From Novosphingobium sp. MW5 (GTDB lineage: Bacteria > Pseudomonadota > Alphaproteobacteria > Sphingomonadales > Sphingomonadaceae): DNA of 64,000 bases. The position numbers and the translations under genes are program-made. The notes under the pieces are model-generated. The model worked only from the letters and a program-made list of their open reading frames with translations. It was not told the DNA's origin and searched no databases. Below, in pieces: positions 17,652 through 64,000 of this stretch (position 1 is the first letter of the stretch; each line of letters opens with the position of its first letter). The stretch covers positions 2,294,001 through 2,358,000 of the forward strand of contig JAPCWB010000001.1 of the NCBI GenBank assembly GCA_025938935.1, in the 5' to 3' direction.

Positions 17652-17663
17652 TCAATAAATCGC

Positions 17664-28196: not shown

Positions 28197-28228
28197 GGGA
28201 CTTCTGGTCCTCCTGTTTGCGTGGGGTT

Positions 28229-35089: not shown

Positions 35090-35102
35090 GGTGTGTCTCC
35101 CC

Positions 35103-35390: not shown

Positions 35391-35417
35391 GTGTTCCGCC
35401 CTCCCCGGCTTTGCCGA

Positions 35418-40512: not shown

Positions 40513-40639
40513 TTTTTTGCTCCAAATGCTGAAATATAATTCTAATATTCCTGTCAATAAATGCTTTAATTTCAGCCAATCAATAGGAATATTGCGTCGA
40601 TATGATTTTCCAAGATTGATCGAGGGCCACATTGAACAG

Positions 40640-46905: not shown

Positions 46906-47903
46906 TTGAATTTGCAGGGTGGTGCTGTGGGCGTTCGTTACGAAGTATGGGCACATCGCAAGGATACCTTGGAGGCTCACGTCGAGCTGCTGCTCAGCGC
47001 TTTGACCGATCTATGTGCATCTCTCTCGCGCGAGTGCGATATTCCTGTCGGTGTGACTCTTGTCGCGCCAACCGATCTCATCAGTTTTAGTCGCGGTCTC
47101 GGAGGCCATACCCCCCGGTACAAGTTTCACCTGGACGCCTGTCAGGCATAGTCCTTAGAATCGATCTCGGCTCCGTCGAGGTCATGTATGAATCCTGCAA
47201 TCAGGATCTTGTATTCGAGGATGATCAACGTCTGGTCGGGGCGTGCCTCTATCGGGAGGAGCAAGGTCTTCGAGTGCACCTTCCTGGTGAGCGCGGCTTG
47301 ATCGCTCGTCCCGCCAACAGCCAGGCAGTTTATGTTCTGTGCAAGACAGCTGACAATAGGCTCAAACGGCAGGCGCCACGAGCGGGTATGCAGGATAAAA
47401 CTTCGCTGCCAGAAGCCGCGTTCTGGCGCGGCGTTGATCAGGCTGTGCAGGTTCTTTCCAGAAACTACACCAGGTTCGACGTCGACGATCGCCTTGTGGT
47501 TCCGGCGCACATGATCGTGCCTATACTCGAAGGGTTTCGATCATCTCTTTCCGTGCATGAGACTTGCAGTATGGATCGTCGCGACGTGGTGCTTGGCCAA
47601 TTCTATTCGCTCGCGAAGCGTGATGCCTTCGCTAACGTCGACGAGATCGCGCGATGTCTCGCCATGACTCGCCGCAACCTGCATTACTATGCTTCCAGCC
47701 GGCTCGGGATTGCGCCCAAGAAACTGATCAAGAGCATGGCCTTGCGCAATGTCATGTGCCAGCTTCCCAGCAGTGGCCCGCACTCGAGCTCGATTGCGGA
47801 CATCGCCTTTGAGCACGGCTTTGAAAGCCCTGCGCAATTTTCCATGGATTATCGCAAGCACTTCGGTGAGCGACCAAGCGAAACCCGCCGCCGGTATCAG
47901 TAG
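46906..47903 (+). pseudogene. AraC-family transcriptional regulator (copy B), frameshifted
   Basis: The 5' frame from about 46906 gives HVELLLSALTDLCASLSREC and LISFSRGLGGHTPRYKFHLD, ending early at 47151. The rest continues in another frame as IVLRIDLGSVEVMYESCNQD, LVFEDDQRLVGACLYREEQ and an intact AraC C-terminal domain (NVDEIARCLAMTRRNLHYYA, SSRLGIAPKKLIKSMALRNV, SSIADIAFEHGFESPAQFSM, GERPSETRRR). One added G at GG 47145-47146 joins them as ACQGIVLRID. Corrected length is about 332 residues. It is a paralogue of the regulator at 41199. The exact start is uncertain; GTG codons further in are possible. Confidence 0.75.
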
Positions 47904-47968: not shown

Positions 47969-49996
47969 TCAGGATTTGGCAACGGCCGCGCCGGCAGCCC
48001 GCATGCCCTCGATTGCCGCGAAAAACCAGAGTTGGGAGCCCATCAGCTCTGTATGTGCAAATCCGATCCGGCCGTGTCCCTGGCGCAGGATTGCACTTGG
48101 GGGTGGTCCGCCGTTCTTGCCAAAGTAGAAGCCCGGCGGCGTCACAACGTAGGCATGACCCATGCGGTTGGCGACAATGCCCGCAATGTCGCGCTTGGAG
48201 TCAAAACCGTAGGGTTTGAACATGCGCTCAAGCTGCTCGCTAACGCCGGCTTCAATGTCTGCGTAAGACAAGGCGTACATGGCGTGGCGGGCGAGCGTGG
48301 ACTGTTCCGGAGCGGGCATGCCGCGTCCGTCGAGAAACGGGATAAACCATGTCATGACTGCGGGTTTGTCGGGATGAAAGGGCGGCTGCTCAGCGCCCTC
48401 AATCACCACTTCGGGAACGAGCCCGCCGAACCAGCCAAACCCCTCGAACCAACGCGCGTGCGAGATGCCTGCCTTGTCAAAGAAGCGCCAGTTGTTGAGC
48501 GCGATATTGACGGACAGAATCGGCGCATGGTTGAATTCATTCATCGCGGCCTTGATCGCAGGCGTGATGTCCCGGCAGACATTCTTGTTCACATGCTGCT
48601 GCCCGCCCATGATCACATTCCTGCCGCGGACCCGGACCATGTCCTTGCCGGCGTTGTTGTAGACAACGTCGACGGCAACCGCCTTGTCGACCTTGCCGAC
48701 GTGCTGCACCGAGACAGCAACGGAATCCAGACGCACCCGCACCGCTTGACCCGGTCGGTCAAGCGTTTCTCGGCGAAGAGATGCTCTCACGAACGATGCA
48801 AACGTCGGTGTGTCACCATAGGCATCAGGGACAAGGTGCTGGAGCAGTTTGCGAGCGATGGTCGCATTCCCGCCGGGCAGTTCCACATTGCGCGAGACGG
48901 GGCCGGCAATTGCAAATGGGCTGGGAATGACTGGTTTGAAGAACTGTTCTCGGTGTTCGTAGTAGACATTCGCGACGTCCATGCCCGAGATCACGTCGGT
49001 GCCGAGCCCCTGAAGCGAAGCACGCATGGGGCCTTCCGCGAAGTAGACCGCATCGGGGCTGACGCCTGCCATTTCGTGCCACCACTGTTCATAGGGCATT
49101 GAGTCCAGTTTCTGGCGCCAGTCCTCTCGATAGGGAACACGCCAGAAGGCAGCCATCTTCATGAGGTCCTTCTTGAGACCGTCGGAGATTGGCGCGTCCT
49201 CAAAGCCGTTGCTCCACGGATTGCGGATGAAGCCCTTGCCTTCGAAGTAGTAGCCGACGTCCGCCCCCTTGTAGTTCGGGAACATTGGGAGCCAGTCATC
49301 GGCGGGGAAGATGATGTCGTTGGTCAGACCTTCCGGCTTTTGGTGGGTGAAGGCCGACGGCAGACCCAGTTCGTGATAAAAAGGATGCCATGGCATGAAG
49401 GAACCGTCAGGCAGGATGCTTCCGCAGGCCGAAGAACCTTGCTTGCCGATCAGTCTATAGCCGCCAACGTCGAATTCGTTGGCACGCGCCACGCCGCCGA
49501 TGATGTCTGCAGCTTCGAGCACCAGGATGCGAGCAGAGGGCTTGGCTTTCCGATAGGTGTAGGCAGCGGTGAGGCCGGCAATGCCAGCACCGACCACGAT
49601 CAGATCGTACTCTTCGCCGCTCAGACGCGCGCTGGCGATCTTCTGATCCTGTTCATGGTTGCGGATCATGCCATGGCCGCGCTTCACGTCGACATGGGTG
49701 TTACCATTGGCGCTGCTGTAGTCGCCGACACCCCCGGGGCCGGTCCATTCCGGGCCCACATCCGTCATGCCGACAGGCCGGGGCTCTGCTTTTGCGGCGG
49801 CCAGAGCAGACGGCGCAAGCGATGTGGCGAGAGCGCCTGTAAGGCTCACACCTGATGCTTTGAGGAATGTCCGGCGCTCTACACCTGCCTGCATTTCACA
49901 CGGCGGCGAGTTATCCTGGGTTGTCGCGTCCTGCTTCTGCCTTGCGTCATCGTTCATGCTGTCAACTCGCCTGAAGTGGGTGGCGCTTGTCGCCAT
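47969..49996 (-). CDS. Exported FAD-dependent amine-oxidase-like oxidoreductase
   Basis: 675 residues. It has a long N-terminus followed by a Tat-type signal (RRTFLKASGVSLTGALATSL, about 41-60). The flavin-binding Rossmann motif is VVGAGIAGLTAAYTYRKAKP (about 137) with the acidic end LVLEAAD and the GGVARANEFDVGGYRL segment typical of the amine oxidase/protoporphyrinogen oxidase superfamily. The C-terminal part (LRQGHGRIGFAHTELMGSQL) closes the FAD site. It should fold in the cytoplasm with FAD and then be exported. Met at 49957 is an alternative start with a better-spaced AGGCGAG. A second predicted Tat-exported flavoprotein lies just upstream (50127), on the same strand, so they may act on the same substrate. 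Confidence 0.83.
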   Translation of the reverse strand: MATSATHFRRVDSMNDDARQKQDATTQDNSPPCEMQAGVERRTFLKASGVSLTGALATSLAPSALAAAKAEPRPVGMTDVGPEWTGPGGVGDYSSANGNTHVDVKRGHGMIRNHEQDQKIASARLSGEEYDLIVVGAGIAGLTAAYTYRKAKPSARILVLEAADIIGGVARANEFDVGGYRLIGKQGSSACGSILPDGSFMPWHPFYHELGLPSAFTHQKPEGLTNDIIFPADDWLPMFPNYKGADVGYYFEGKGFIRNPWSNGFEDAPISDGLKKDLMKMAAFWRVPYREDWRQKLDSMPYEQWWHEMAGVSPDAVYFAEGPMRASLQGLGTDVISGMDVANVYYEHREQFFKPVIPSPFAIAGPVSRNVELPGGNATIARKLLQHLVPDAYGDTPTFASFVRASLRRETLDRPGQAVRVRLDSVAVSVQHVGKVDKAVAVDVVYNNAGKDMVRVRGRNVIMGGQQHVNKNVCRDITPAIKAAMNEFNHAPILSVNIALNNWRFFDKAGISHARWFEGFGWFGGLVPEVVIEGAEQPPFHPDKPAVMTWFIPFLDGRGMPAPEQSTLARHAMYALSYADIEAGVSEQLERMFKPYGFDSKRDIAGIVANRMGHAYVVTPPGFYFGKNGGPPPSAILRQGHGRIGFAHTELMGSQLWFFAAIEGMRAAGAAVAKS

Positions 49997-50126
49997 GTGA
50001 GGGAGGTTCTTCCTTGGGCTACGCCGCGTCTCAGGCTAGTCCGATCGCGCCAGCATCTGGTATCGGAATTGGGAAAGTATTGTCGGGAACGCACTTTTGT
50101 CGCGGGCAGTGCAGGTCACGGTGCGG

Positions 50127-51624
50127 TTACATCCGGTACGCGAAATCGGATCCGTCGGAGAAGCGGCTGAGACGATAGTTCTTCGGATCGACCGATGGTC
50201 TGGCCCCGGTCACCAGATCGGCCAGGAGGATGCCCGCGCCTGGCCCCATGGTGAGACCATAGTAGAAGCCCGTACCAACATAGAGCCCCGGGATGGAATC
50301 CACACCGGAGATGATCGGCATATTGTCGATCGCCATCTGCATGGCGCCTGACCAGCGCTCCCGGACGGACCCCCGTTCGAAGATCGGCATGGTCTGCTGC
50401 AGATGGGTGATCCCCTCGTCGATGGCCCTGACGGCGAGTTCAGGCTCATAAATTCGGGTCTGCTCGAAGATGCCCGGACGATCGAGAGGGACTTTCCCTG
50501 CAGACGGCACCCAGCGCCAGAACGTCGAAGGCGAGAATCGCGGTCTCAGTGCAGCGGCATTGGCTTCGAAGGCCGGCATGAGCTGAAAGGGGTGCTGCAG
50601 TACGACCGGAAGGAGGGGGCAATGCCCGTGAATTCCCAGACGATATATCCGCCGTCAGATTGTTTGCGCCAGCCGACCTCGTGGTCGGCAACGATTGAGA
50701 GCGTGCCATAGTCTGGACCCTCGAAGGGGTGAAGGCTGGCACCCTTTGCGAAACACTGGAGGGTACGGAGATCGAGCCCGAGATCATGCGCCAGAACCTG
50801 CGACCAGACTCCTCCCGCGAGCACTACCGATGAGCATTTCACCGTCCCCTTCTCAGTTACGACTCCCGAAATACGCCCACCGGTCCGCTCAAGGCCGCGC
50901 ACAGCGCAGAACTGATAAATCTTCGCGCCCAACTTGCGTGCGCCGATTGCCATCGCCGGTGCACTGTAAACAGGTTCCGCACTCGCATCATCCGGACAGG
51001 TCAGGCCGCCAGCAAGCGGGCTCGTGCTGCCAGGAGCCATTCTGGCGGCTTCTGCCGCACTTACCATCCGGGCGCCGCCATTTGGCAAACCCTTCACGCT
51101 CTCCACCCAACCTTCGCACAGGCCAAGCATGTCAGCCTTGTTCTTGCCAAAGAGCATCGTGCTCCCCCGCCTCAGGAAGCCGATATCCTCACCCGTAATG
51201 CTGGACAGTTCCGACCAGCGTTGTTTGGAGAGCTCGATCAGGTCCATCTTTGTCGGGTCCGATAGCATGGCCTCAATAAGGCCACCGGATCGTCCGGACG
51301 ATTCACCTGCGATTACGCCCTTTTCAAAAAGGGCCACGGAAATCCCTCGCCGCGCTAGTTCGAGCGCTGTTGCCGTGCCGATGAATCCACCGCCGATTAT
51401 GGCAACATCAACATTGCCTGGTAGATCCGTATCCGTCAGGATGGGCCGGGCCCGCGAAAAACCCTTCGGCTTCACGCCAGCCCCATCAGCAAGCCAGCCT
51501 GCCCCCTTGATGGTCGCGCCCCCAACGACCGCCGCAGATCCATAGCGAAGTGCGGTACCGATCAGCGCGCGGCGCGAAAGCTTCCTTTTGCCTTAGCCGG
51601 ACTGGACGCTTCTACCTCTGACAT
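50127..51624 (-). pseudogene. Tat-exported FAD-dependent oxidoreductase (DAO family), two frameshifts
   Basis: The start ATG 51624 has a good ribosome site (GGGAGCG) and reads MSEVEASSPAKAK. One missing A at A4 (51586-51589) then hides a twin-arginine signal, KRKLSRRALIGTALRYGSAA. The main frame carries the DAO-type FAD motif VAIIGGGFIGTATALELARR, FEKGVIAGESSGRSGG, and PLAGGLTCPDD. It breaks again at a C5 run (G5 at 50615-50619); one added C gives APLLPVVLQHPFQLMPAFEA and the C-terminal flavin motif GLYVGTGFYYGLTMGPGAG. Family members oxidise amino acids, amines or hydroxy acids. Corrected length is about 498. It lies 130 bp upstream of the other exported flavoprotein. Confidence 0.8.
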
Positions 51625-51800
51625 TCCGCGCTCCCGGAGTTACTGCTTAGCCGGCAGAATGGTTGGTCCAAGGTCCGGCTGGCAAGGCCCTTGTGCCCCT
51701 CATCGCGCCCATTCCGCTTTAAAATGCATGTAGCAATTTGAATGCAATCGAGCTGCAGCCAGTATGCAACGATATCGGCCCGTGTTTGCAATAGGGTGGT

Positions 51801-52289
51801 TCAATCGTCCTTCTGGCCAACGAACAGGGTCATCAGGCCGATGTAACCGGCATACCGGAATGCGGTTTCCGCGACGTTGAAGCCGGTCTCCCCGAGGTAC
51901 ATGAAAAAGATGACCTCGCCGAAGTAGGCAAAGCCGACGAACAGCCACACCACTGCCGACCAGCCGCCCAGCAGCGCCAGCGTCTTGGATGCTTGAAACG
52001 CGGCTGAGTCTGCGTCACGTGCCTTCCACATTCTGCGGACCCCGGTCCAAGAAAGTAATGCGGTGACGAGCTTGCCGCCGAGGAGGCACGCGACGCCGAG
52101 CCAGATGACACCGGGCGCCGAAGTCTTCCAAGGCGGGGAATTTTCGCCTAATTCGCGCATGGAGCTAACCATCTCGAGAGCGCCATATGTCTTCTCGAGG
52201 GCGCCAAGGTTGGTGAACAGGCTCGTTGCAGCCCATAGCCCTGTCAAGAAGACCAGCAGAATCTTGGTGTAACGGATTGGCAGGTTCAC
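51801..52289 (-). CDS. DUF2165-like small integral membrane protein
   Basis: About 162 residues from GTG 52289, chosen because GGAGGA lies 4 bases upstream; ATG codons at 52301 and 52331 are alternatives. Four hydrophobic helices: TKILLVFLTGLWAATSLFTN, IWLGVACLLGGKLVTALLSW, TLALLGGWSAVVWLFVGFAY and AFRYAGYIGLMTLFVG. The N-terminal pattern with conserved Asn and YGALEMVSSM resembles DUF2165. No function is known. It is upstream of the exported flavoprotein gene on the same strand with a 176-bp gap, so co-transcription is possible and a membrane redox partner role can be imagined, without direct evidence. Confidence 0.7.
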   Translation of the reverse strand: MNLPIRYTKILLVFLTGLWAATSLFTNLGALEKTYGALEMVSSMRELGENSPPWKTSAPGVIWLGVACLLGGKLVTALLSWTGVRRMWKARDADSAAFQASKTLALLGGWSAVVWLFVGFAYFGEVIFFMYLGETGFNVAETAFRYAGYIGLMTLFVGQKDD

Positions 52290-52331
52290 GCATTCCTCCA
52301 TCGCATCTGGTGTGTCTTTGGCCGGTCGCAT

Positions 52332-52739
52332 GCCGTACCATCAGCGTTGTTTCGAGTGCGGGTGCCGTTCGAGTGCAACCGCGATGCTCCAAATTCAGCC
52401 CGACGAACAAAGCCAACTTAACCCGCGTAGAGTGCTTCGCTTCCGGCATGGTGTTCGACGGTATTCGGAGAGCATGGCACCGGGACGTGACTGACATTAC
52501 ACGCATTCCGCTGTCATCTACTGTTCGACTAACGGATACAATCGCGTTTAATTATTGATAAACAGCTATTTATCACCCTGTTGACCTAGGCAAACTTTCC
52601 AAGTTGCGACATAATCATATGAAGACATAGGATTGTGTCGAAAAAGTCTTTGACCGCTGGCAAGGCTCACATGCACATATCTGTCGCCGTCCAGCATTTC
52701 CCGCTGGGGATGGCCAGGAAAACGTCAGGGAAGCATGCC
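52332..52739. promoter_or_regulatory. Divergent upstream region of DUF2165 and CmcJ-like genes
   Basis: About 400 bp without a clear gene. The stretch 52540-52630 is AT-rich (for example AATTATTGATAAACAGCTAT), as expected for a promoter of the plus-strand gene. TTGACC at 52581 and CATAAT at 52610 have too wide a spacing (23 bp) to be a confident sigma-70 pair. An in-frame extension of the downstream gene to 52635 exists but is judged noncoding. Confidence 0.35.
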
Positions 52740-53555
52740 ATGGACATTCTCGAGCAGACCACCCAATTCGATTACTTCGATGGGCCGGACACCCGGCCGG
52801 CTTTTGACTTCCATACAGGTGCGCGCACAACGCTGCGCTGCCGTCAGTTCGAACTGTCGATCACGGATGCGCGCACGCTTGCCGATGCTCCGCAGATTGA
52901 ACGCGAGGGTTTCGAACTCGTCAATCACAAGACGTCGGTCTCGATGAGCGATGATCGCGAGACGATCGACAGGATCTACCACGAAGAAGTTGGCTCGATG
53001 CTCAAGGAACGCTTTGGCGCATACCTTGTCATCCCCTTCCGGATCGGTCTGCTCATCCGCAAGCCGCCTAAGGAAGACGGCTTCTACCGGGACCAGATGA
53101 AGGGCACCCGGATCGCTCACCTTGATTACACCGACAATTCGATGGACATGTGGGTCAGGGTCTGTGCCGAAATGGAAGGCGTCGATCCTGGCGAATATAA
53201 GCGCATGGCTGTCTATCAAACCTGGCGCATGTTTGCGCCGGGGCCTCAGCAGGAGACTCTGGCCCTGTGCGATGCGCGTACAGTCAAGCCAGGCGGCGAT
53301 GTCGTGTTCGACTCAATCATCAGTGATGATGACCGCCAGACCTTTGAATCCCGCGTGATGAAGTACAGTCCCGACCATTCCTGGTACTACTGGAGCAATC
53401 TGACCCGGGACGAGATGCTCCTGTTCAAGGGCTATGACACTGATCTGTCCTTGATCCGCGACGTGCCGCATCAGGCGATCACCACACCGGGCGATCCAGC
53501 AGGCCGCAATCCGCGCGAGAGCATCGAGACCCGCTTCTTCCTGTTCTTCCGTTGA
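52740..53555 (+). CDS. CmcJ/NvfI-family oxidoreductase (putative Fe(II)/2OG-type oxygenase)
   Basis: 271 residues from ATG 52740. The sequence follows the CmcJ/NvfI (AsaB-like) pattern: DTRPAFDFHTGARTTLRCRQ near the N-terminus, FELVNHKTSVSMSDDRETID, YHEEVGSMLKERFGAYLVIP, MAVYQTWRMFAPGPQQETLA, and the diagnostic end WYYWSNLTRDEMLLFKGYDT, PHQAITTPGDPAGRNPRESI, ETRFFLFF. Members include cephamycin biosynthesis CmcJ and the fungal NvfI; many are predicted Fe(II)/2-oxoglutarate oxygenases or hydroxylases. No signal peptide. It is followed after 63 bp by the tandem-TetR gene on the same strand. The true substrate is unknown; an oxidative step in catabolism is inferred. Confidence 0.8.
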   Translation: MDILEQTTQFDYFDGPDTRPAFDFHTGARTTLRCRQFELSITDARTLADAPQIEREGFELVNHKTSVSMSDDRETIDRIYHEEVGSMLKERFGAYLVIPFRIGLLIRKPPKEDGFYRDQMKGTRIAHLDYTDNSMDMWVRVCAEMEGVDPGEYKRMAVYQTWRMFAPGPQQETLALCDARTVKPGGDVVFDSIISDDDRQTFESRVMKYSPDHSWYYWSNLTRDEMLLFKGYDTDLSLIRDVPHQAITTPGDPAGRNPRESIETRFFLFFR

Positions 53556-53618
53556 CAAGAACGCCGGTCTCTGGTTGTCCCTGAGACCGGCAGTTTGCCC
53601 GTGCGGGGCCAGATCTCG

Positions 53619-54944
53619 ATGATGCATCGGCATGATTTCGGCGAGGATTGTTTCCACTTGGCGACCGCCGCTTTCGCTCCCGAGAACTGCGCAGGGGGAT
53701 CCCCGCGGCAACCAAAGCAGCGGTGGTCTGACCGCAGACAGCGGATCATCGAGGTCGCTTCGTTACATATCAATCGCTTCGGCCCAGCCGATATAGACCT
53801 GCGCCGCATTGCATCCGACTGTGGATTGTCCCGCAGCACACTCTACCATTATGTGAAGGATCGCAGCGATCTCGTCGAGGATTGCCTCGATAAGGCCCTT
53901 GGTCACATCGAGTGGGCAGCGCAGCAGGCGCGGCAGAATGCAAGTGCTGCCAATACAATCGAGGATTTTGTCCGCCGGAGTCTGGATAAAAGCGGTCGAT
54001 ACACGTGCGCACTCTCCGACTTTGGGTTTCTTGGGCCTGAGAGGTCTCAGCCGCTCTCTCAGCGTGCGAACGCTGTGCGCGATTCCCTTCGGGATATTGT
54101 CGAGAGTGGTATTGCCTCTGGTGAATTTGCTGCCTGCAATCCACAGATTGCGGCCGACCTCGTTCTTGGCGCAATCAACTGGACCAAAGTTGCGGCGATC
54201 TGGGGATCATTTGCCGATGCGGAGTCCGTCTGGCAGATAGCGATCGACGCGCTTGTTGGTCTCGCCCTGCGGGGGATTGCAGCGGGTATTAGCCCCCGCG
54301 GGCTTGAAGAGGCCCCCATAGCCGGTGTGGTCCCAGATTCGATGTTCTGGAAAAGCGCATTTGATGCCGAAGCGCGTGCTCGGGCGAGACGCGAGGAGAT
54401 CTGCCGCGTCGCAACCACCATGTTCAATGAGCGCGGCATCAGCGCAACGACGGTCGAAGACATCGCGAAAATATTGGGCGTTACCATCGGTGCAATCTAT
54501 CACGCCTATCCGGGCAAGCCTGATCTGGTACATGCCTGCTACGCACGGTCGTACGATATCTATTCGACATTCATAGAGTTTGTAGAAGCGAGGGGATTCT
54601 CCGGTATTGGGCAAGTCTATAACTTGCTGCTGTGCCATGCCTACAGCCAGATCGGGCCCTGGACGACAATGCGCGGTCAGTCGGGTGTTGAAGGGCTTCG
54701 TGTACATGGCAAGAATGACATCATGTCACGCCACCGCGACGTGGTCGCGCGATCAGCTCAGTTCTACGAGAATGCCATGGCTGATGGTACCGCCCACGGC
54801 GTAGATGCTCTCCTGCTTAGCTCGGCCGCAGCCGGCGCAATATCATGGCTGCCTTCACATCAACCCAATGACCGGAGCGATGCACTCGCAAAATCGCGCA
54901 TTGTGGCTCGTCAGTTGCTCCAGGGTCTATTGCAGCGAGACTGA
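53619..54944 (+). CDS. Tandem TetR-type transcriptional regulator (two TetR domains)
   Basis: 441 residues from ATG 53619; ATG 53622 and an upstream TTG at 53595 are alternatives. Two complete TetR modules are joined. The first HTH is RRQRIIEVASLHINRFGPAD, LRRIASDCGLSRSTLYHYVK and the second, about 235 residues later, is REEICRVATTMFNERGISAT, VEDIAKILGVTIGAIYHAYP. Each is followed by its own helical ligand-binding part. Ordinary TetR proteins are about 200 residues with one module and act as dimers, so this chain may act as a pseudo-dimer. It lies downstream of the CmcJ-like gene and upstream of the DapA-like gene, all plus strand, and probably senses a pathway compound. Confidence 0.85.
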   Translation: MMHRHDFGEDCFHLATAAFAPENCAGGSPRQPKQRWSDRRQRIIEVASLHINRFGPADIDLRRIASDCGLSRSTLYHYVKDRSDLVEDCLDKALGHIEWAAQQARQNASAANTIEDFVRRSLDKSGRYTCALSDFGFLGPERSQPLSQRANAVRDSLRDIVESGIASGEFAACNPQIAADLVLGAINWTKVAAIWGSFADAESVWQIAIDALVGLALRGIAAGISPRGLEEAPIAGVVPDSMFWKSAFDAEARARARREEICRVATTMFNERGISATTVEDIAKILGVTIGAIYHAYPGKPDLVHACYARSYDIYSTFIEFVEARGFSGIGQVYNLLLCHAYSQIGPWTTMRGQSGVEGLRVHGKNDIMSRHRDVVARSAQFYENAMADGTAHGVDALLLSSAAAGAISWLPSHQPNDRSDALAKSRIVARQLLQGLLQRD

Positions 54945-55104
54945 GCGAGGAAACGCGAGCAGGCTCCGATCCGTGTTTGAGCACAATCGGGTGAAGTCTG
55001 TTTCGCGTGGCGTAGCGTTTTGCCCAAGCCAGCCAGGCTATAGGGCAGCAAATGTAGATGTCTGACCAGCGGCATCATCGACGACCTGAATTGGAGACCG
55101 GCGA

Positions 55105-56052
55105 ATGATTAGTGCATCCGAGATTGGTGGCCTGATGGCCATGATCCCGACTTTCACCACCCCCGATGGTGGCGAACTGCATGTCCGGGATACCATCAAC
55201 GTGGCGGGTATCCATGACGGTGTCGCCAAGATCCTGCGTGATGGTGCGACCGCGATTGCAACGACCGGGAGCTTCGGCGAGCCGATCAATCTTCTCGATC
55301 ACGAGTTCGAGCTTCACGTCAATGAGGTCGTCAAGGCGGTCGACAAGCGTGTCCCGGTCATTGTCGGCGTCATTACGACAAATACGCGCAAAGCCTTGGA
55401 GTACGTGAAGGTCGCCAAGGATGCCGGTGCTGATGCTGTGATGTGCTCAGTGCCATACTACTATGAGCAGACTATTGAAAACGTCGTGCAGTATTACAAG
55501 GATATTGCAGAGACATTCCCAGACTTGGGTATGTTCATGTATCATAATCCGATCATTCATAAGACCCGCATCCCTGTCTCGGCATTCCATGAGATCGTCA
55601 AGCTGCCGAACTTTGTCGGCATGAAGGATTCCCACCGCTCGCCGGAGGAGTTTGATGAGCTCATGTCGATCATTCGCGGGAAGATCAGCACGTTCGTGCT
55701 CCCGCACCAGTACGTCGAGTATGCGGAAAAGGGTGCTGCGGGCGTTTGGGCCATCGATGCCTGGAACGGGCCTGAGCCGTTCGTGAAGCTTGTCGCACTC
55801 GTGAAGGCTGGGCGCATGGAGGAAGCACGCCAGCTCGCACATGATGTGTTTTTCGTCGAGAATGATTACTGTGACGATCTTCGCTGGCGCGAGACCGGGC
55901 ACAAGGTGGTCCAGCGCTATTGCGGCTATATCGACCCGGGTCCGCTACGCCGGCCCTATGTCCATATCCCGCCTGAAGTCGATGCGTTGTTCCGTCGCCG
56001 GGCGACCTACTGGAAGGCACTTCGGGAGAAGGTCGCTTCGATCGAGGTTTGA
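55105..56052 (+). CDS. DapA/NahE-like class I aldolase (hydratase-aldolase)
   Basis: 315 residues of the dihydrodipicolinate synthase/N-acetylneuraminate lyase superfamily. The Schiff-base Lys lies in NFVGMKDSHRSPEEF, the Tyr in MFMYHNPIIHKTRIP, and the substrate turn in TTGSFGEPINLLDHE, where classic DapA has GTTGE. The N-terminal TTPDGGELHVRDTINVAGIH and C-terminal GPLRRPYVHIPPEVDALFRR resemble trans-o-hydroxybenzylidenepyruvate hydratase-aldolase (NahE/DoxI) rather than DapA, so an aryl-pyruvate-type retro-aldol in aromatic catabolism is a good guess. Ribosome site GGAGA. Upstream lies the TetR gene (160 bp), downstream an MFS transporter (155 bp). Confidence 0.83.
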   Translation: MISASEIGGLMAMIPTFTTPDGGELHVRDTINVAGIHDGVAKILRDGATAIATTGSFGEPINLLDHEFELHVNEVVKAVDKRVPVIVGVITTNTRKALEYVKVAKDAGADAVMCSVPYYYEQTIENVVQYYKDIAETFPDLGMFMYHNPIIHKTRIPVSAFHEIVKLPNFVGMKDSHRSPEEFDELMSIIRGKISTFVLPHQYVEYAEKGAAGVWAIDAWNGPEPFVKLVALVKAGRMEEARQLAHDVFFVENDYCDDLRWRETGHKVVQRYCGYIDPGPLRRPYVHIPPEVDALFRRRATYWKALREKVASIEV

Positions 56053-56207
56053 TGTAAGGCGCTCAAGCCTGGATGATATCGATCGCAGGGTCCTTGGAAG
56101 CGCCAAGGCAGAAAGGGCCTTGCGGGAACAACGCCGGGAGGATGCAGGTCTGGCCGCACCTGGGCGAACCTGGATAGCAGGACACTTCTGCCTTGAAGGG
56201 ATTTCCC

Positions 56208-57356
56208 ATGGTTGAGACCGATATTCCTGCCGTTCCGGCAAAGTCCGCCCGGCTGGCTGCTTACGCCTGCTACTTCCTTGGCTCCCTGCAGTTGTGGTTG
56301 CAGCCTTCTGTGGTTGCCGACTTTATCGGCCGCCAGCGGCTGTCAGATGCGGATGCAGGGTTGCTGGCCACCGTCGAGATGGTCGTCGTCTCGGCCACTA
56401 TGCTCGTTGCGCCGCGATTTTCGCTTGCCGTCTCTCTGAGGGCTCTGGCGGTGGCAGGGTCGATCCTGGCTGCACTGGGCAGCATCGCATCGATCCCGCT
56501 TTCAAACTGGTTTGTCCTCGCCGGCGTACGTACCTTTGCCGCAGTCGGCTTTGGACTGCTCTTGCTTTGCGCAAACGTTGCAATCGGGAGAATGCGTGAC
56601 GCTCAGGCCACGTTTGGCAAGATGTATATGGTCAGTCTGCTCGGCGCATCAGTGACTCTGGCTGTCTTGCCGCTTGTTCAGACCCGATTGCCCTACGCTG
56701 CGGCCTTCGTGCTGGTGCCGGTTGCTGCGGGCTGCTTGGGCATTCTGACATTGAGGACCGGAACTGGAAACGCCGGCGCAGGTGGTCCCGACCGGCCAAG
56801 AACTGTCGGCAAAGCGATCGGTGCGCACATTCTTGCTCTGGCGATGGCGCTATCCTTGCTTGCTGTCGGCTTCTTCGGGTTTTGGGCCTTTCTTGTAAGA
56901 TACGCTGAAAAGTCCGGGGTGGATGCCTCGGGTGCCTCGTTTGTCAGCTCGCTTTCCATCCTTGCGGCCATGGCAGGCAGCATGCTCTCTGCTGCCCTCA
57001 CGAAGGCACTCGGGTTCCGGTTTTCGGCAACGCTCGCAGCGTCAGCGATTGGCCTATCTGTGATGGCGCTGATGACGGGAGTTTCCCCGATCGCCTTTTA
57101 CGTTGCGTGCTGCCTCGCGCTCGGCTGCTTCTATCTCCTGTTCCCGCTTGTTCTTGGCGCCGCAGCCGAGCTCGATGCGACCGGTGTCGGGCCTGCCTAT
57201 GTGAGTGCGATTGCGCTTCTGATGGGCGCCTTCGGGCCCTATCTGTTTTCGGTCATCGCATCGAGCGCCGGCATTGGCGGAGCCATGACTGCGGTCGCGC
57301 TCTGCACGGCAGGGTCGATTGGGCTGTTCCAGGTGGTCGCCAGCAAGCTGGCGTGA
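56208..57356 (+). CDS. MFS transporter
   Basis: 382 residues from ATG 56208 (AAGGGA ribosome site); a TTG 15 bases upstream would add five residues. Twelve hydrophobic segments are visible, beginning LAAYACYFLGSLQLWLQPSV and including ALAMALSLLAVGFFGFWAFL in the second half. The first loop carries ADFIGRQRLSDADAGLLATV, an MFS motif A-like region in weak form. I cannot assign a subfamily or substrate. It lies between the hydratase-aldolase gene and the convergent DapB-like dehydrogenase gene, suggesting uptake or export of the pathway's compound. Confidence 0.8.
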   Translation: MVETDIPAVPAKSARLAAYACYFLGSLQLWLQPSVVADFIGRQRLSDADAGLLATVEMVVVSATMLVAPRFSLAVSLRALAVAGSILAALGSIASIPLSNWFVLAGVRTFAAVGFGLLLLCANVAIGRMRDAQATFGKMYMVSLLGASVTLAVLPLVQTRLPYAAAFVLVPVAAGCLGILTLRTGTGNAGAGGPDRPRTVGKAIGAHILALAMALSLLAVGFFGFWAFLVRYAEKSGVDASGASFVSSLSILAAMAGSMLSAALTKALGFRFSATLAASAIGLSVMALMTGVSPIAFYVACCLALGCFYLLFPLVLGAAAELDATGVGPAYVSAIALLMGAFGPYLFSVIASSAGIGGAMTAVALCTAGSIGLFQVVASKLA

Positions 57357-57384
57357 TAGCTTGCTGGCGGCCAGAGGGATTGCC

Positions 57385-57424
57385 TGCCCGCTGCATTGCC
57401 TGTTTTGGACCATTGCAGCGGGCA
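57385..57424. terminator. Inverted repeat between convergent genes, possible bidirectional terminator
   Basis: TGCCCGCTGCA (57385-57395) and TGCAGCGGGCA (57414-57424) are a perfect 11-bp inverted repeat with an 18-base loop. The repeat lies in the 81-bp gap between the MFS gene and the DapB-like gene that converge here. No clear T tract follows on either strand, so the role as terminator is tentative. Confidence 0.45.
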
Positions 57425-57437
57425 AGTGGATATTGGG

Positions 57438-58496
57438 TCAGAGCGTGCGATAGTCCTTCTTGGCGGAGGTAAAGATCGTCGGATAGACGATGCCCGGTTG
57501 AGCTGCGACCACCTGGGGTATGGCCTGAACGAGCGGCACGGCGGTTGCGTAGTGGCCTGGGCAGGTCGTGTCGCCCGCACGGAAGCGCTGGTCGCCCTTG
57601 AGCGTAGCAAAGGCATGGATATCAGCGCGCAGTGACACGGGATCGCCTTCGATCTCAATCTGCCAACGTTCGGGTTTGCCGAGCGACCAGTTGAGCACGA
57701 TCTCGAAACGGTCTTCACTGCCGACCGTACCGATAAAACCAAAGCGTAACATGGAGACCAGCCCAGGGGGCAGCGTTGTACCGCCTGGCAGTGCGATCGG
57801 ACCGTCGCTGACTTCAAATGTCGTTGCGATCCTCACATCAGTCGGTGCTTCGAAGAGGGTGTGGGCGATCAGTGATATCTCTTCATGGTAGGCCCGCAGG
57901 AGCATAGGCTCGACCATGGGGACGGCCTGGCTTGCGGCAGCTTCGGGAACACCAAGGCCGAACATGTTCATCAGCGGAACGGGCAGCGATGAAACATCGA
58001 ACCATTCCTCAAGGCGCAGGCTTTCGACGTTCATGCAGACGCCCGTCATCGCCATTGCGACGCGGTCGAGGAATACGCCGGGAAGCTCGCCAGAGCCATG
58101 CAGGCTGCTGCGACCCTTGCGGCAGGCCTCTTCGATCCTGGCAACGTAGTCCGGCCCCTTGAGATGAGGGTACCAGTAGGCCGACGCCGAGATCACGTTC
58201 TTGCCTGATGCAAGCAGCTGCAAGATATCGCGGTCCATCTGCTCATGGTCGATGGGGACCATGCCGGTATAGATCACCACGTCAGCATCGAGAGCGAACA
58301 CCGCCTCGCGATCATTGCTGAGCGCAACACCGATCGGATCGCGTCCGATGTAGGTGCCGACGTCAATCCCTACCTTGTGGTCACTGTGACACAGAACACC
58401 AGCAATGGTGAAGTCGGGCCTGCCATGGAGGCACTTCAGCACGGCCGTGCCAACGGACCCTGGTCCCCATATGATGACGCGATACGGATCTTTCAT
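57438..58496 (-). CDS. DapB-like NAD(P)H-dependent dehydrogenase
   Basis: 352 residues of the dihydrodipicolinate-reductase-like/NAD(P)H-dependent amine dehydrogenase group. The N-terminal nucleotide motif is VIIWGPGSVGTAVLKCL, followed by GVLCHSDHKVGIDVGTYIGR, ADVVIYTGMVP and the GKNVISASAYWYPHLKG segment. The C-terminal part has an alpha/beta substrate domain (VPMVEPMLLRAYHEEISLIA). Similar proteins in actinobacteria and sphingomonads lie in steroid or aromatic catabolic clusters and include 2,4-diaminopentanoate dehydrogenase. Intact single gene. The next gene (HxlR) is divergent, 162 bp away, and probably regulates it. Confidence 0.83.
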   Translation of the reverse strand: MKDPYRVIIWGPGSVGTAVLKCLHGRPDFTIAGVLCHSDHKVGIDVGTYIGRDPIGVALSNDREAVFALDADVVIYTGMVPIDHEQMDRDILQLLASGKNVISASAYWYPHLKGPDYVARIEEACRKGRSSLHGSGELPGVFLDRVAMAMTGVCMNVESLRLEEWFDVSSLPVPLMNMFGLGVPEAAASQAVPMVEPMLLRAYHEEISLIAHTLFEAPTDVRIATTFEVSDGPIALPGGTTLPPGLVSMLRFGFIGTVGSEDRFEIVLNWSLGKPERWQIEIEGDPVSLRADIHAFATLKGDQRFRAGDTTCPGHYATAVPLVQAIPQVVAAQPGIVYPTIFTSAKKDYRTL

Positions 58497-58658
58497 GCGA
58501 TACTCCCGATGCAGGATTGGACGGAGCAGGCCGCGTCAGCCCAGGGGCATGCGGGCCCCTCAGGGCTCTTCTTCGGAGAAGACCTGCTTGTGGAATGGGA
58601 TGCCGGTGATGTATCGTTTTCTCAAGTAGGGTGATTTTTTAGAGTTGGTCTGCAAAAA

Positions 58659-59057
58659 ATGACTATCGAGTTCGGATCAGTGCCGTTTGAAGCCTGCACG
58701 CCGACACAATCGCAGCGCGAAGCGTTCAAGCAGGCGATGGATATCATTTCGGGCAAATGGAAAATGGATATCATCTTTGCCCTGCTGACGGGCGAGCCTA
58801 CCCGTTTCGGGGTTCTGCGGCGCAAGCTTCCCGGCATAACCCAGCACATGCTCTCGTCGCAGCTGCGCGCGCTCGAGGCCGACGGCATGATTTTGCGCCA
58901 GGTCTACCCCGAGGTTCCGCCGAGAGTTGAGTATTCGATTACGCGCAAGGCCTATGCGCTGGGCCCGGTACTGCTGGGGCTTGTCGATTGGGTAGAATGG
59001 TCGCGCGAGGCCGAGAATGCTGGCTCCGTTTCAGCCAGCAGCGAGCGAGTAGACTGA
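58659..59057 (+). CDS. HxlR-family transcriptional regulator
   Basis: 132 residues with a typical HxlR winged helix: MDIISGKWKMDIIFALLTGE (first helix with the GKW motif), FGVLRRKLPGITQHMLSSQL (recognition helix), then RALEADGMILRQVYPEVPPR and VEYSITRKAYAL (wing). No Cys of the redox-sensing HypR type is seen in the core except Cys15. Family members control neighbouring catabolic or oxidoreductase genes. It is divergent from the DapB-like gene, and its 3' end overlaps the convergent DUF1772 gene by 27 bp. Confidence 0.9.
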   Translation: MTIEFGSVPFEACTPTQSQREAFKQAMDIISGKWKMDIIFALLTGEPTRFGVLRRKLPGITQHMLSSQLRALEADGMILRQVYPEVPPRVEYSITRKAYALGPVLLGLVDWVEWSREAENAGSVSASSERVD

Positions 59058-59501
59058 CAGGCACGCGGCGACAGTGCCGGCTATGGAGCGCACGACGTTC
59101 CACCGATTCCATTTCGGCTGGTATGCCTGCCAGGCCGAAGCCGCGGTCGGCGTGTCGTCCTCGTGTTTGAGCAGTGCATTGTTCAACGGCACATTGAAGG
59201 TGAGCGTACCGCCCGCCATGCCCACGAGGTAGATCGCCGAACCTGCCACTGCGGCTGGAGGGATCGAGGTGAACCTGGCCGCGACGACAACCGCCAAAGC
59301 GGCAATTGTACTCAGCAAAAAGAGCGGAAGCATCCAGCCTTTCACGAAAGCCCGATTGACCGCATTCATGGCCTGAAGCCCCACATAGTCCGGGACGTTC
59401 GCCAGACCGGGCATGACGAACCCCCAGAAGGCCATCGCGATCCCAGCTTCAAGAGCCTGTAGAACCGCGGTCGCTGAAACGAGGGCTGTTGCCCAATGCA
59501 T
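59031..59501 (-). CDS. DUF1772 (anthrone oxygenase-like) membrane protein
   Basis: 156 residues with four hydrophobic segments: VLQALEAGIAMAFWGFVMPG, KGWMLPLFLLSTIAALAVVV, AAVAGSAIYLVGMAGGTLTF and SIAGTVAACLSVYSLAAG. The conserved element NVPLNNALLKHEDDTPTAAS, followed by WNRWNVVRS, is the DUF1772/anthrone oxygenase signature. Some eukaryotic relatives oxidise anthrones; bacterial members are mostly uncharacterised. It overlaps the convergent HxlR gene by 27 bp at the 3' ends and lies 49 bp from the upstream esterase gene on the same strand. Confidence 0.82.
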   Translation of the reverse strand: MHWATALVSATAVLQALEAGIAMAFWGFVMPGLANVPDYVGLQAMNAVNRAFVKGWMLPLFLLSTIAALAVVVAARFTSIPPAAVAGSAIYLVGMAGGTLTFNVPLNNALLKHEDDTPTAASAWQAYQPKWNRWNVVRSIAGTVAACLSVYSLAAG

Positions 59502-59550
59502 AGGCCGTTCCTTCAGGCACTAGCAGCCTGTTTGGAGCAGGTTTATTTTC

Positions 59551-60483
59551 CTAAAGCCAGCGTCCAAGTGCGCTGTCGAGATCAGCGGCAAAGCATTGTG
59601 AAACGCGTGCCGTGGGGATCAAATCGAAGGCATGGACAGCCCCTGCGTAGGCGTGGAGTTCGACCGGAACGCCCGCATGGGACAGACGGCTCGCATAGTT
59701 GAGGTTCTCGTCGAAGAACAAGTCGAGCGATCCTGTGGCCATGTAGGTCTTGGGAAGGCCTGCAAGACTTTGAGCGAGCGCCGGCGAAAAATAGGGCAGG
59801 TCCTGTTCGGGGATGCTGCCGCTCCCGGCCAGTGAAGCCCAGCCGAACCTGTTGCTGGCTCTCGTCCAGATGAACTCGCCGCAGGTCGGATTCTTGTAGG
59901 GGTCTGCGTCAGTCCCCACCCGGTAATCCAGCATGGGATAGATTAGGAACTGTGCGGAGACGACAGGGCCACCCCTGTCCCGACAAAGCAGCGCCAGTGC
60001 GGCCGCGAGACCTCCACCTGCGCTTTCGCCCATGATCACGACCTTGGCGAGATCGATGTCGAGATCCTTGGATCGCGCGACTAGCCAACTCAGGGCAGTG
60101 TAGCAATCTTCGACTGCAGCGGGATAGGGGTGTTCAGGAGCGAGCCGGTACTCGACAGACGCCACGACGACACCGTGCTGCAAGGCGCGGGCTGCATTTG
60201 ACATATCCATCATCTCTGCTGATCCTGCCACATAGCCGCCGCCATGAATGTGCAAGATCAATGGGCGCGGACCATCCGGGTCCGGGGTGCGAAACACCCT
60301 CACCGCAACTTCTGCCTGTCCTGCGCGGGAGGCTACTAGCACCTCCGGCTCGAGGGGCGGTAAGACGCCATCGGGCAATGGCGTCACAGTCCTGAGATGG
60401 GGGAGGGTCTCTTCGGTGAGATCGTGAGGCGGGAAGATTTCGAAAACCAGCGCGGTTTCCTCGTCGACAAGATGGCGCGTCAT
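59551..60483 (-). CDS. Alpha/beta hydrolase, HSL-family esterase (copy 4)
   Basis: 310 residues from ATG 60483 (ribosome site GAAGGGAAC); longer frames to 60564 are less likely. Oxyanion motif HGGGY, nucleophile GESAGG, acid in TGSLDLFFDEN and His in AGAVHAFDLIP form a complete triad. The N-terminal cap begins MTRHLVDEETALVFEIFPP. No signal peptide, so cytoplasmic. It resembles the three esterases of the trehalase locus in family but lies in the aromatic-type region, where it might hydrolyse an ester or lactone intermediate. The downstream DUF1772 gene may be co-transcribed. Confidence 0.87.
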   Translation of the reverse strand: MTRHLVDEETALVFEIFPPHDLTEETLPHLRTVTPLPDGVLPPLEPEVLVASRAGQAEVAVRVFRTPDPDGPRPLILHIHGGGYVAGSAEMMDMSNAARALQHGVVVASVEYRLAPEHPYPAAVEDCYTALSWLVARSKDLDIDLAKVVIMGESAGGGLAAALALLCRDRGGPVVSAQFLIYPMLDYRVGTDADPYKNPTCGEFIWTRASNRFGWASLAGSGSIPEQDLPYFSPALAQSLAGLPKTYMATGSLDLFFDENLNYASRLSHAGVPVELHAYAGAVHAFDLIPTARVSQCFAADLDSALGRWL

Positions 60484-60819
60484 CACGTTCCCTTCGAATA
60501 TACGCGGACGAACTGCAGACCCGCGCTTCAGCCTATTTCTAGATGCCATGGATTGAGCGGCCAAACCCCCCAGCTCCTACAAACAGTCTTGCAAGGCTTG
60601 GCTATTGCAATTTGGTAGGATTTGCAGAGTCAGGCTGATGGCGGCATGCGCCCTGATCGGACGTCAACCTGTCCATGAGGGCCAAACACCTCACTATTGA
60701 AAGCCTGCCGAGCACAACCGTGCCTACATTTATGGTTCTAATCCTCTTTTGCGGAGTGCCTACATCGGCACAACGATGTCAGCCGTAGCGGCGGCATTTC
60801 GTGTAAAGGTGTTCGATCG
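60484..60819. promoter_or_regulatory. Divergent upstream region of esterase and folE
   Basis: 336 bp without a supported gene between the esterase (minus) and folE (plus). The stretch 60690-60770 is AT-rich and could hold the folE promoter. I see no clear tetrahydrofolate or other riboswitch core, but I did not fold the region. The folE ribosome site is weak (GTGTAAAGGTG). Confidence 0.35.
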
Positions 60820-61431
60820 ATGCTGCAGCAAAGCCTAGCCCCGTCTTCAGAAGCGAATCCGCGCGATCGCGCGATCCCGCAGTCGGTCCTTGACGCCGTC
60901 CGCACTCTCATTGCCTGGGCCGGCGATGATCCGGAACGGGAAGGGCTGTTGGATACGCCTGGCCGGGTGGCTCGCGCTTGGAAGGAGTATTGCGCGGGCT
61001 ATGATGAAGATCCACGCAAGCATCTGGGGCGTCAATTCCATGAACTGGGCGGTTATGACGAAATCGTGATACTGCGCGACATTCCATTCCATTCCCATTG
61101 CGAACATCACTTGGCTCCGATCACCGGTAAAGCATCGATCGCCTACCTGCCCGGCAAGGCAGTTGTCGGCATTTCGAAGCTCGCGAGAGTTCTCCACGGT
61201 TACGCAAGGCGCCTGCAGATCCAGGAACGCCTGACCGCCGAGGTGGCTGAAGCCATATGGAAGGGTATCGAGCCGCGGGGTGTTGTCGTGGTGATCGAGG
61301 CGCAGCACGGTTGCATGACCGGACGAGGCGTCCGGACGCCTGGCGTAGGCATGACCACAAGTGCCGTGCTTGGCTGTTTTCTGGAGGATGCGGCAAGTCG
61401 GCGTGAAGTCCTTGCCCTGATGGGTAAGTGA
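60820..61431 (+). CDS. folE: GTP cyclohydrolase I
   Basis: 203 residues, intact. FolE converts GTP to 7,8-dihydroneopterin triphosphate, the first step of tetrahydrofolate synthesis. The zinc and active-site residues lie in HSHCEHHLAPITGKASIAYL (Cys and His ligands) with VVIEAQHGCMTGRGVR later. KAVVGISKLARVLHGYARRL and QIQERLTAEVAEAIW are the other conserved boxes. Its place in a catabolic region rather than in a folate operon is notable. Together with the LigM/DesA-like tetrahydrofolate-dependent demethylase at 63386 it suggests an increased folate demand while methoxylated substrates are used (inference). It is followed after 46 bp by the DUF6506 gene. Confidence 0.95.
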   Translation: MLQQSLAPSSEANPRDRAIPQSVLDAVRTLIAWAGDDPEREGLLDTPGRVARAWKEYCAGYDEDPRKHLGRQFHELGGYDEIVILRDIPFHSHCEHHLAPITGKASIAYLPGKAVVGISKLARVLHGYARRLQIQERLTAEVAEAIWKGIEPRGVVVVIEAQHGCMTGRGVRTPGVGMTTSAVLGCFLEDAASRREVLALMGK

Positions 61432-61806: not shown

Positions 61807-63128
61807 TCAGCCACCCCGTGCCAGACGGAAATTGGCGACTGTGCCGCGTAGCAACATGGCGCTTGGAATGATCATTGCGGCAAGGCCGCCCAGCGCGAGG
61901 AAGAGAAAGCTGGGGTCATCCTTGCCCAGATCAAGCAGGATGCCCCCCCCATCAGTGCGATGATTCCGCCAACGCGCCCGCCGGAAGCGATGAATCCGAC
62001 GCCAGTTGAACGCAAGTGTGCCGGATAGGCAATCGTCGACAGAAAATTGAAAACCTGAAACATGGCACCAGTGCCTGCGCCAATGAGCCCGAAAGTGGCG
62101 ACCAGCAGGATCTGGTGAGGCACACTGGCAGTATCCGTCTGATCGAGCATCAGGAGCGAGAAGGCCGCAATGGCTGCAACGGTGAATGTGCCGCACAGCA
62201 GGATAGTCGTGCGTACAGTGGCCCGTCGCATGAGCAGGGCCACGGCGAACGTGGTTCCGATCGCCAGAAAATTGTAGACGAAACCAGCTGTTATGCCGAG
62301 CGCAAGCGGATAGCCAGCATCGGTAAACACAACTGCGCCCCAGTTGGTGACGCAATAGCTCACGAATTGGATGAAAACATAGGCGAAGGCGCACGATAGG
62401 CTGGTCCATAGATAGGTTGGCCCAAAGATGCCTTCCTTGCCGGCAGAAGACATGGCGTCCTCAGTCTGCGGATGTCTGATTACCGATTCTTTGCGAAATT
62501 CCGGGCTTTCAGGCACGACTTTCCAGATCACGAACCCGAGGAGCAGGGTGAGCAAGCCTGCAACAGCAAAGGATTCCCGCCAGCCTGTAATCGAGAGCAT
62601 GCCGAGCATGAAGGCTGCACCCAACATTGCGCCAGACGGGAAGCCCATGGTGAGGAGACCTGTTGCAAATGCTCTTCCGCGGCTGCGGACCAATTCGGTC
62701 ATGAGCGCAAACACCGGCGGGGTAAGCGATCCAAACCCCAAGCCGCTCACAAACCGCAAGATGCCCATCTCAAGGGGCGTTCGCACAAATGCAAGCAGCA
62801 TCGTTGTAAGGCCGAACAGCAGAAGGCTGACAACAATCGACCGCTTCCGTCCGAAGCGGTCGCCGGTCCACCCACCGATGGGGGTGCCGACGACCATTCC
62901 CACCGCTGCGGCGGCCAAAACGGGACCGAAGGCCGTCTTGCTCATGGCAAATTCTTTGAGCACCAGCGGCGTGGCGTAAGCTAGGACTTTCGTGTCAAGC
63001 CCGTCGACTAGGATTGCAAGGCTGAGCAAGCCAGGGACGAGGAAGGCCAAAGCCCCCGCCAACCCATCGTGTGCAGCCCGACCCTCATCTGCCGCTGCAA
63101 CGGCGCTGGTTTCCTGCATAATGTCCAT
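61807..63128 (-). pseudogene. AAHS-type MFS transporter for aromatic acids, single-base frameshift
   Basis: From ATG 63128 (AGGATCGG upstream) the protein shows the aromatic acid:H+ symporter (PcaK/VanK-like) pattern: LSLAILVDGLDTKVLAYATP with the DGxD motif of helix 1, GTPIGGWTGDRFGRKRSIVV (motif A in loop 2-3), and FVSGLGFGSLTPPVFALMTE. Near the C-terminus the frame is lost at a G8 run (C8 at 61943-61950). One added G restores MGGGILLDLGKDDPSFLFLA and LLRGTVANFRLARGG with a stop at 61807. Corrected length is about 440, normal for the family. It is divergent from the O-demethylase gene, suggesting uptake of a methoxylated aromatic acid. Confidence 0.85.
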
Positions 63129-63385
63129 CCGATCCTGGTCCGAGGGAGCAACAATAGGGCAAACGGCGAGCAGGGGGATAGCAATGTTCCACTGATAGCC
63201 ACCACTATGAGTAAAACTGTCCGTTCGCTCGTTCGGCTTAATCCAGCCGGACGAAGAGCGTAACCGGGAACTCGGATAAAGCGCTGCGGCGCGTGTCCTC
63301 AGCCCTTCAAGCAGCCGGTCAAGGTTGCCATTTTGGAACAAACCAAGGATACGGAAGCTGTCCGTGTCGCTTTCTGGAGATTGCA

Positions 63386-64000
63386 ATGTCGGACACCCCA
63401 TTCCGGACTCTGCAGGAGTTCGTCGACGGTACTCCGGATCTGGTCGAGTACTTCTACAACGACACGCCTGGACCTTACAGCCGCACCCGCCGGTCTGACG
63501 TGCCGCCCGAAGTCACGAACTGGCGCGATGAGCAGCGGGCGTGGCGCGAGAGCGCTGTGATCTTCGACCAGTCCCACCACATGCCTGAGCTCTATCTTCG
63601 CGGCAAGGATGCGCGGGCGCTGCTGACCCGACTTGGCGTGAACAGTCTTGCGAACCTCGCGCCGGGCGTTGCCAAGCAGTATATCTGCTGCAACCCGGAC
63701 GGTTACATGATCGGCGAGTGCGTTCTGCACGATTTGGGCGATGACACCTTCCAGCTCATCAGCGGGCGGCCATTGCAGAGCTGGGTTCGTTTCAACGTCG
63801 CGACCAGTGGCCTCGATGTCACGGCAGAAGTTGACGAAGCGACCCCTGACAATCCAAGCGGGCGCCGGATTAATTTCCGCTTCGGCATGGACGGTCCGAA
63901 CGCAGGTCAGATTTTCAACGCTGTATGTGAAGGTGGGGCACCCGAACTGAAGTTCTTCCGTACCGCCAAGGTGCGTATTGCCGGCGTCGAATGCATGGCA
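63386..64000 (+). CDS. LigM/DesA-like tetrahydrofolate-dependent aryl O-demethylase (3' end outside window)
   Basis: The frame opens at ATG 63386 and is still open at the window end, so 205 N-terminal residues are present. Key segments are VTNWRDEQRAWRESAVIFDQ, SHHMPELYLRGKDARALLT, NSLANLAPGVAKQYICCNPD and FRFGMDGPNAGQIFNAV, which match vanillate/3-O-methylgallate (LigM) and syringate (DesA) O-demethylases of sphingomonads, members of the aminomethyltransferase (GcvT) fold. They move a methyl group from an aryl methoxy group to tetrahydrofolate. Cytoplasmic. The divergent aromatic-acid permease and nearby folE support this role. The exact substrate cannot be told from the fragment. Confidence 0.88.
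   Translation, partial: MSDTPFRTLQEFVDGTPDLVEYFYNDTPGPYSRTRRSDVPPEVTNWRDEQRAWRESAVIFDQSHHMPELYLRGKDARALLTRLGVNSLANLAPGVAKQYICCNPDGYMIGECVLHDLGDDTFQLISGRPLQSWVRFNVATSGLDVTAEVDEATPDNPSGRRINFRFGMDGPNAGQIFNAVCEGGAPELKFFRTAKVRIAGVECMA

Follow-up and report, generated by a model that had tools for sequence, protein, structure and literature searches.

The question raised by this locus is whether a group of oxidoreductase, aldolase and esterase genes in Novosphingobium sp. MW5 constitutes a single catabolic pathway. These genes occupy positions 47969-60564 of the window, by which we mean the whole analysed stretch of 64,000 nucleotides (positions 2,294,001 to 2,358,000 of contig JAPCWB010000001.1), and profile searches found in this block all the gene families named in an earlier note on the same DNA: the flavoproteins, DUF2165, CmcJ/NvfI, aldolase, DapB-like, DUF1772 and esterase families. 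That note had arranged them into one ordered pathway. We favour, with a probability of roughly 0.55, the reading that the 12.6-kb block forms the left arm of a larger region (about 72 kb, probably acquired) that breaks down plant-type, probably methoxylated aromatic compounds, and that it is a mosaic of separately controlled units; this reading rests on the genes downstream of the block. A setting in aromatic catabolism is well supported, more strongly than the earlier note could see; support for one ordered pathway is lacking.

The block forms the left part of a stretch of low guanine-plus-cytosine (GC) content that runs from about 36 kb to about 108 kb in window coordinates. The GC content of these 72 kb is 0.580. 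Five 20-kb stretches taken elsewhere on the chromosome for comparison, one to the left of the window and four surrounding DapB copies, have 0.631. To the right of the block lie genes for GTP cyclohydrolase I (FolE; 60820..61431, forward strand, PF01227), a LigM/DesA-like tetrahydrofolate O-demethylase (forward strand; only its start, 63389..64000, is in the window, and it continues to about 64786), a xanthine-dehydrogenase-type enzyme, an aldehyde dehydrogenase, FolD, MTHFR and PurU, as well as those for two VanA-type Rieske proteins and ring-hydroxylating oxygenases. The same side carries a gentisate dioxygenase scoring over its curated cut-off, an HcaB/BphB-like diol dehydrogenase and a NahE relative (E 1e-65) that is a paralogue of the aldolase in the window, together with a ring-hydroxylating alpha subunit and a BphC-like (extradiol-type) dioxygenase, both under their equivalog cut-offs. 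The catabolic setting proposed earlier is upheld by these aromatic genes downstream in the low-GC region. As a separate observation, L066:82-6977 contains the genes for the diol dehydrogenase, the ring-hydroxylating dioxygenase, the NahE-like aldolase and the BphC-like and gentisate dioxygenases, and resembles a naphthalene-type upper pathway.

O-demethylation near the block, which had also been proposed, is borne out by the LigM/DesA-like gene, which begins at about 63389 and is followed by folate C1 genes. Its product contains the folate-binding GCV_T domain, and a second GCV_T protein right of the block is 26% identical to it. The genes for FolE, the LigM/DesA-like protein, MTHFR, FolD and PurU lie within about 21 kb (60820 to about 81.8 kb, taking the window and L119 together). 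The family assignments of these five genes point to a folate route by which aromatic methoxy groups would end up as formate, with MTHFR, FolD and PurU in principle converting the methyl group. At about 112.9 kb, beyond the low-GC stretch, there is a gene for a formate dehydrogenase alpha subunit. The MTHFR is closest to 7xg9, which may be the enzyme of SYK-6. Sphingobium lignivorans SYK-6 uses LigM with MTHFR (PMC12585457), and relatives of both are present here; SYK-6 has a formate-tetrahydrofolate ligase (PMC12997858); here FolD and PurU are nearby. Window positions 15955-35747, immediately to the left of the low-GC stretch, carry an IS110-type transposase as well as conjugation genes of the F type (TraG, TraH, TraN, TraC, TrbI and TraE). 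LigM-type demethylation and a possible formate-ending folate route near conjugation genes would help explain the spread of such abilities.

The most distinctive member of the block is the Schiff-base hydratase-aldolase-like protein of the DHDPS family (55105..56052, forward strand). The family assignment made earlier holds, because its closest solved relatives are PhdJ (6dan, E 1.6e-27) and NahE. Lys174 and Tyr146, which we take to be the Schiff-base lysine and the catalytic tyrosine, are aligned in 14 of 14 rows, as in members of the NahE/PhdJ family, and the protein is of similar length to them. It differs in being only about 25-27% identical to NahE- and PhdJ-type plasmid proteins, in carrying MKDSHR and WRETxxK in place of their motifs, and in having no ring-cleavage gene directly adjoining it in the window. 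The motifs GSFGE, YHNP, MKDSHR, WRETxxK and GYxxPGPLRxP are shared with four relatives (39-46% identity), and this combination is missing from NahE, PhdJ and the other aligned hydratase-aldolases. As judged from these motifs, the window aldolase and its four relatives are a group apart from NahE/PhdJ in which the putative Schiff-base lysine is kept. In a tree the rows nearest to the window aldolase are its four uncharacterised relatives, with the fork relative to NahE/PhdJ undecided. If this subgroup has a substrate of its own, it would be a testable new branch in a small family of aromatic-breakdown enzymes.

At E 1e-30 or better, the aldolase was found in one of 296 genomes of the order, namely its own, and in four of 337 genomes of the class (own included), and another genome collection gave a single relative (46%), in a Roseiarcaceae bacterium. 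Our genome searches score few first-look candidates per genome (e.g., 2, 4, up to 11), and therefore absences in them are not proof. Two of the four relatives are, to judge from their neighbours, clearly among aromatic-catabolism genes: one (L064) is accompanied by two cupins, which share 34-36% identity with the gentisate dioxygenase found in the present genome, and by a LigXa-type Rieske gene, and another (L133) by glyoxalase/dioxygenase-superfamily and FAA-hydrolase genes. Since the genome encodes a stronger NahE relative some 32 kb further right (L066:2889-3866), a naphthalene-type role was not our default assumption for the window aldolase by itself. Polysaccharide-deacetylase-family proteins that are 43% identical to each other occur at L119:16043-16921 and L133:14693-15571, in two regions that both carry the aldolase subgroup.

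The CmcJ/NvfI-family oxidoreductase (52635..53555, forward strand) scores 204.8 bits with NF041278 against a curated cut-off of 80. H162, D164, H279 and R300 are identical in all 30 aligned family rows; HxD...H is presumably the metal site and the Arg the 2-oxoglutarate site. Because these four residues are kept throughout, the protein fits a likely Fe(II)/2-oxoglutarate oxygenase. When the protein is aligned pairwise with 7eus, H279 and the Arg are in register and HxD is three columns off. CmcJ-like genes were found in 21 of the 296 genomes of the order at 1e-20 (own included).

From the gene families, conserved catalytic residues, composition and neighbours that were observed, we infer substrates, an order of steps and cooperation between units, as follows. 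The SpdH-like protein encoded at the left end of the block would oxidise a periplasmic substrate (by family, an amine), the CmcJ-type enzyme would oxidise a substrate with Fe(II) and 2-oxoglutarate, the aldolase would bind a 2-oxo acid as a Schiff base, releasing pyruvate and an aldehyde, and the esterase would take off an acyl group. The products would then enter O-demethylation (LigM-like, FolE, MTHFR, FolD and PurU) and the ring-cleavage genes on the right.

Several points weigh against the reading of the block as the left arm of an acquired aromatic-catabolism region. It is based on sequence. No link with aromatics is demonstrated for four kinds of block gene (flavoprotein, DUF2165, DapB and DUF1772), and relatives of two of these are found in other settings. 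One aldolase relative (L135) is flanked by genes that look by eye like polyphosphate-kinase and TauD types, with an amidohydrolase about 4 kb away, and another (L136) is on a 4-kb contig where the nearest recognisable gene encodes a Bug-type receptor. The LigM/DesA-like protein falls below both equivalog cut-offs (525 of 800 and 493 of 580 bits). As to acquisition, three of 25 4-kb pieces of the GC comparison stretches are as low as 0.583-0.589, and a search of the window for a tRNA gene that could mark an insertion site found none.

Among other explanations, the one that survives best is that the block is a decaying or recently assembled mosaic on a mobile region, with some genes broken and without a function shared by the block genes; we regard this as possible and clearly less probable than the reading favoured here. 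It agrees with the low GC content, with the conjugation genes to the left and with frame changes in three genes of the 38-63 kb part of the window: a TonB receptor gene (38315-40141), the DAO-family flavoprotein gene of the block (in two places) and a major facilitator superfamily (MFS) gene at 61872-63401. The remaining block genes, however, have open frames, and the frame changes themselves may be sequencing errors. A 16S gene was not found, as could happen with a metagenome assembly; the negative is weak because the same search found 16S in only nine of 14 control genomes and missed five.

We consider unlikely the proposal that eight enzymes form one linear pathway for a lignin-like phenolic, through periplasmic oxidation, import, hydroxylation, retro-aldol cleavage and O-demethylation. 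The genes are physically close, the hydratase-aldolase, esterase and O-demethylase families are present, and another genome (L072) has, by eye, two FAD genes with RR motifs near each other. The strand layout, however, is that of several units with three regulators: genes lie on both strands, and the strands, the gaps and the AraC-, TetR- and HxlR-type regulators argue for several transcription units, not one operon. This arrangement suggests at least four enzyme units in the block, which would be SpdH-DAO-DUF2165, CmcJ-TetR-aldolase-MFS, DapB, and DUF1772-esterase. In addition, the second flavoprotein gene is interrupted.

Conservation does not speak for a linear pathway either. The block 47969-60564 was not found in the other 118 searched genomes of the genus; some DNA match occurs in 51 of 119 (own included), and outside its own genome no matching piece is longer than 543 bases, the esterase gene being the most frequent site of such pieces. 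We also compared gene neighbourhoods at 69 loci, one of them a paralogue in this genome and most with a flank of only 1.5 kb, using 18 query proteins at 1e-6. More than one query protein was matched at eight loci; five of these pair a TonB receptor with one other protein, two pair CmcJ with the right-hand MFS protein, and the remaining one (L063) pairs CmcJ with an 85-residue esterase match. Apart from L063, the core enzymes are unpaired in the loci compared, and a conserved neighbourhood for the block was rejected. The relatives of individual members stand in other neighbourhoods; for example, the DapB-like gene is one of five in the genome, and its relatives lie near HxlR genes in clusters that look like CoA-ligase, SDR and carotenoid-oxygenase ones. 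The openly accessible literature searched contained no such gene set. The earlier note had held that matches placing the genes in separate known functions would count against its pathway; separate contexts were found for some members, and no known functions are thereby assigned to them.

Export by the twin-arginine translocation (Tat) system had been claimed for both flavoproteins, and only the first is, on its sequence features, a sound candidate. This spermidine-dehydrogenase-like FAD protein of 675 aa (47969..49996, reverse strand) has an intact open frame and ERRTFLKAS near its N-terminus. Its FAD-binding region and C-terminal part align with SpdH (phmmer E 1.1e-44), and an RR motif is present within the first 90 residues in 24 of 25 SpdH-like relatives (25 of the 29 fetched loci were examined), the sole miss being a 480-aa open reading frame cut by the end of its locus. 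The second (50127..51475, reverse strand), of the DAO family, is split: three of four relatives (432-482 aa) align with it in two successive pieces, the first in frame -3 and the second in frame -2, and the fourth with the first piece only, among the matches listed. No single open reading frame there covers the whole domain of a DAO-family amine oxidase. The SRRALIG stretch of this second gene sits 5' of the first start codon of its frame, the ATG near 51624 is in a different frame, and no Tat-type N-terminus was seen by eye in the four relatives.

SpdH-like genes were found in 39 of the 296 genomes of the order at 1e-30, and DAO-type genes in eight of 196 genomes at 1e-25 (own included in both). 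The first flavoprotein resembles SpdH of Pseudomonas in the alignment of the FAD-binding and C-terminal parts (chains at E 1e-44) and in the frequent Tat motif of its relatives, and differs in aligning in two separate stretches only; haem b and a polyamine substrate are reported for SpDH (PMC12564564). In six larger stretches around SpdH-like relatives (L068, L070-L073 and L076), the only other proteins to match the window at 1e-5 were TonB receptors, in L070. By eye, an RR-motif FAD protein (L072:6334-7626) is encoded at a distance of about 1.5 kb from an SpdH-like gene, and it has no match at 1e-5 to the second flavoprotein of the window. The two closest SpdH-like relatives (L068 and L070) each have close by a TetR-type regulator and a small protein whose start is signal-like, and methylamine-dehydrogenase-like genes (L076:8675-11971) lie a few kb from another SpdH-like gene, again by eye.

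As a concept, two Tat flavoproteins in one catabolic pathway are known from NicA2 and Pnao, which act in nicotine degradation (PMC12224317); here one of the two genes is interrupted, and no CxxCH haem motif of the cytochrome c kind was found when the called genes at 36-82 and 84-124 kb with 80 aa or more were searched. This precedent, the report of a tetrahydrofolate enzyme acting on berberine in other bacteria (PMC5547118), and the presence of SpdH, glycine, sarcosine and D-amino-acid oxidases and diaminopentanoate dehydrogenase among the closest named families point to a route in which amine-oxidising flavoproteins and the DapB-like protein would open a nitrogen-containing methoxylated (alkaloid-like) plant compound before demethylation and ring cleavage, but we think this very improbable, since the family matches are distant, the CxxCH motif is lacking in the genes named above, the O-demethylase resembles LigM/DesA and does not belong to the GcvT-like type that acts on berberine, and no alkaloid-specific gene was identified. 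Equally slight is the chance of an undescribed pathway within one transferable region, whereby the Tat-exported SpdH-like dehydrogenase would open a nitrogen-bearing methoxylated plant compound in the periplasm and the MKDSHR aldolase, with a new specificity, would free pyruvate from the product of ring or side-chain cleavage, the two being linked to folate-dependent demethylation. Naproxen and berberine were rejected as substrates after the literature searched showed no matching cluster.

The DapB-like protein (57438..58496, reverse strand) scores over the DapB_N cut-off and resembles 2,4-diaminopentanoate dehydrogenase at a score well under the curated cut-off (NF040740, 84 bits against 400; DAP_DH_C also under cut-off). 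Such genes were found in 11 of 196 genomes at 1e-15 (own included). An HxlR-type gene lies within 20 kb in all five stretches examined from other genomes (L104-L108), and these HxlR genes match the one in the window (58659..59057, forward strand, PF01638) over 57-99 residues at 33-39%. To judge from these matches, DapB and HxlR may be a real association, possibly an old pair separate from the rest of the block. By eye, the same five stretches contain SDR, CoA-ligase and SnoaL-like genes, and three of them (L104, L106 and L108) a carotenoid-oxygenase-like gene.

Regulators and receptors had been described as lying together with the enzymes, which is true of the TetR- and HxlR-type regulators inside the block; the AraC-type regulator (47184..47903, forward strand, Pfam HTH_18) and a TonB receptor (43746-46031) adjoin it on the left. 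The TetR regulator (53595..54944, forward strand) consists of two TetR-type units in tandem (Pfam TetR_N, TetR_C_24 and TetR_C_41) and has a 27% identical paralogue at L066:11532-12635. The other members are a small DUF2165 membrane protein (51801..52331, reverse strand, PF09933, E 2e-14), an MFS transporter (56193..57356, forward strand; PF07690 at 32.8 bits, below the cut-off of 33.4), a DUF1772/anthrone-oxygenase-family protein (59031..59501, reverse strand, PF08592), whose two family names we take to be the same, Anthrone_oxy being the current one in Pfam, and an HSL-type esterase (59551..60564, reverse strand, PF07859, E 1.6e-59), which matches lipase, esterase and heroin-esterase structures. 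Outside the block, the MFS gene at 61872..63401 (reverse strand) is related to aromatic-acid/H+ symporters (TIGR00895 at 186.7 bits, below the cut-off of 418.55) and has its C-terminus out of frame, and the TonB receptor gene at 38315-40700 has its N-terminal part in another frame.

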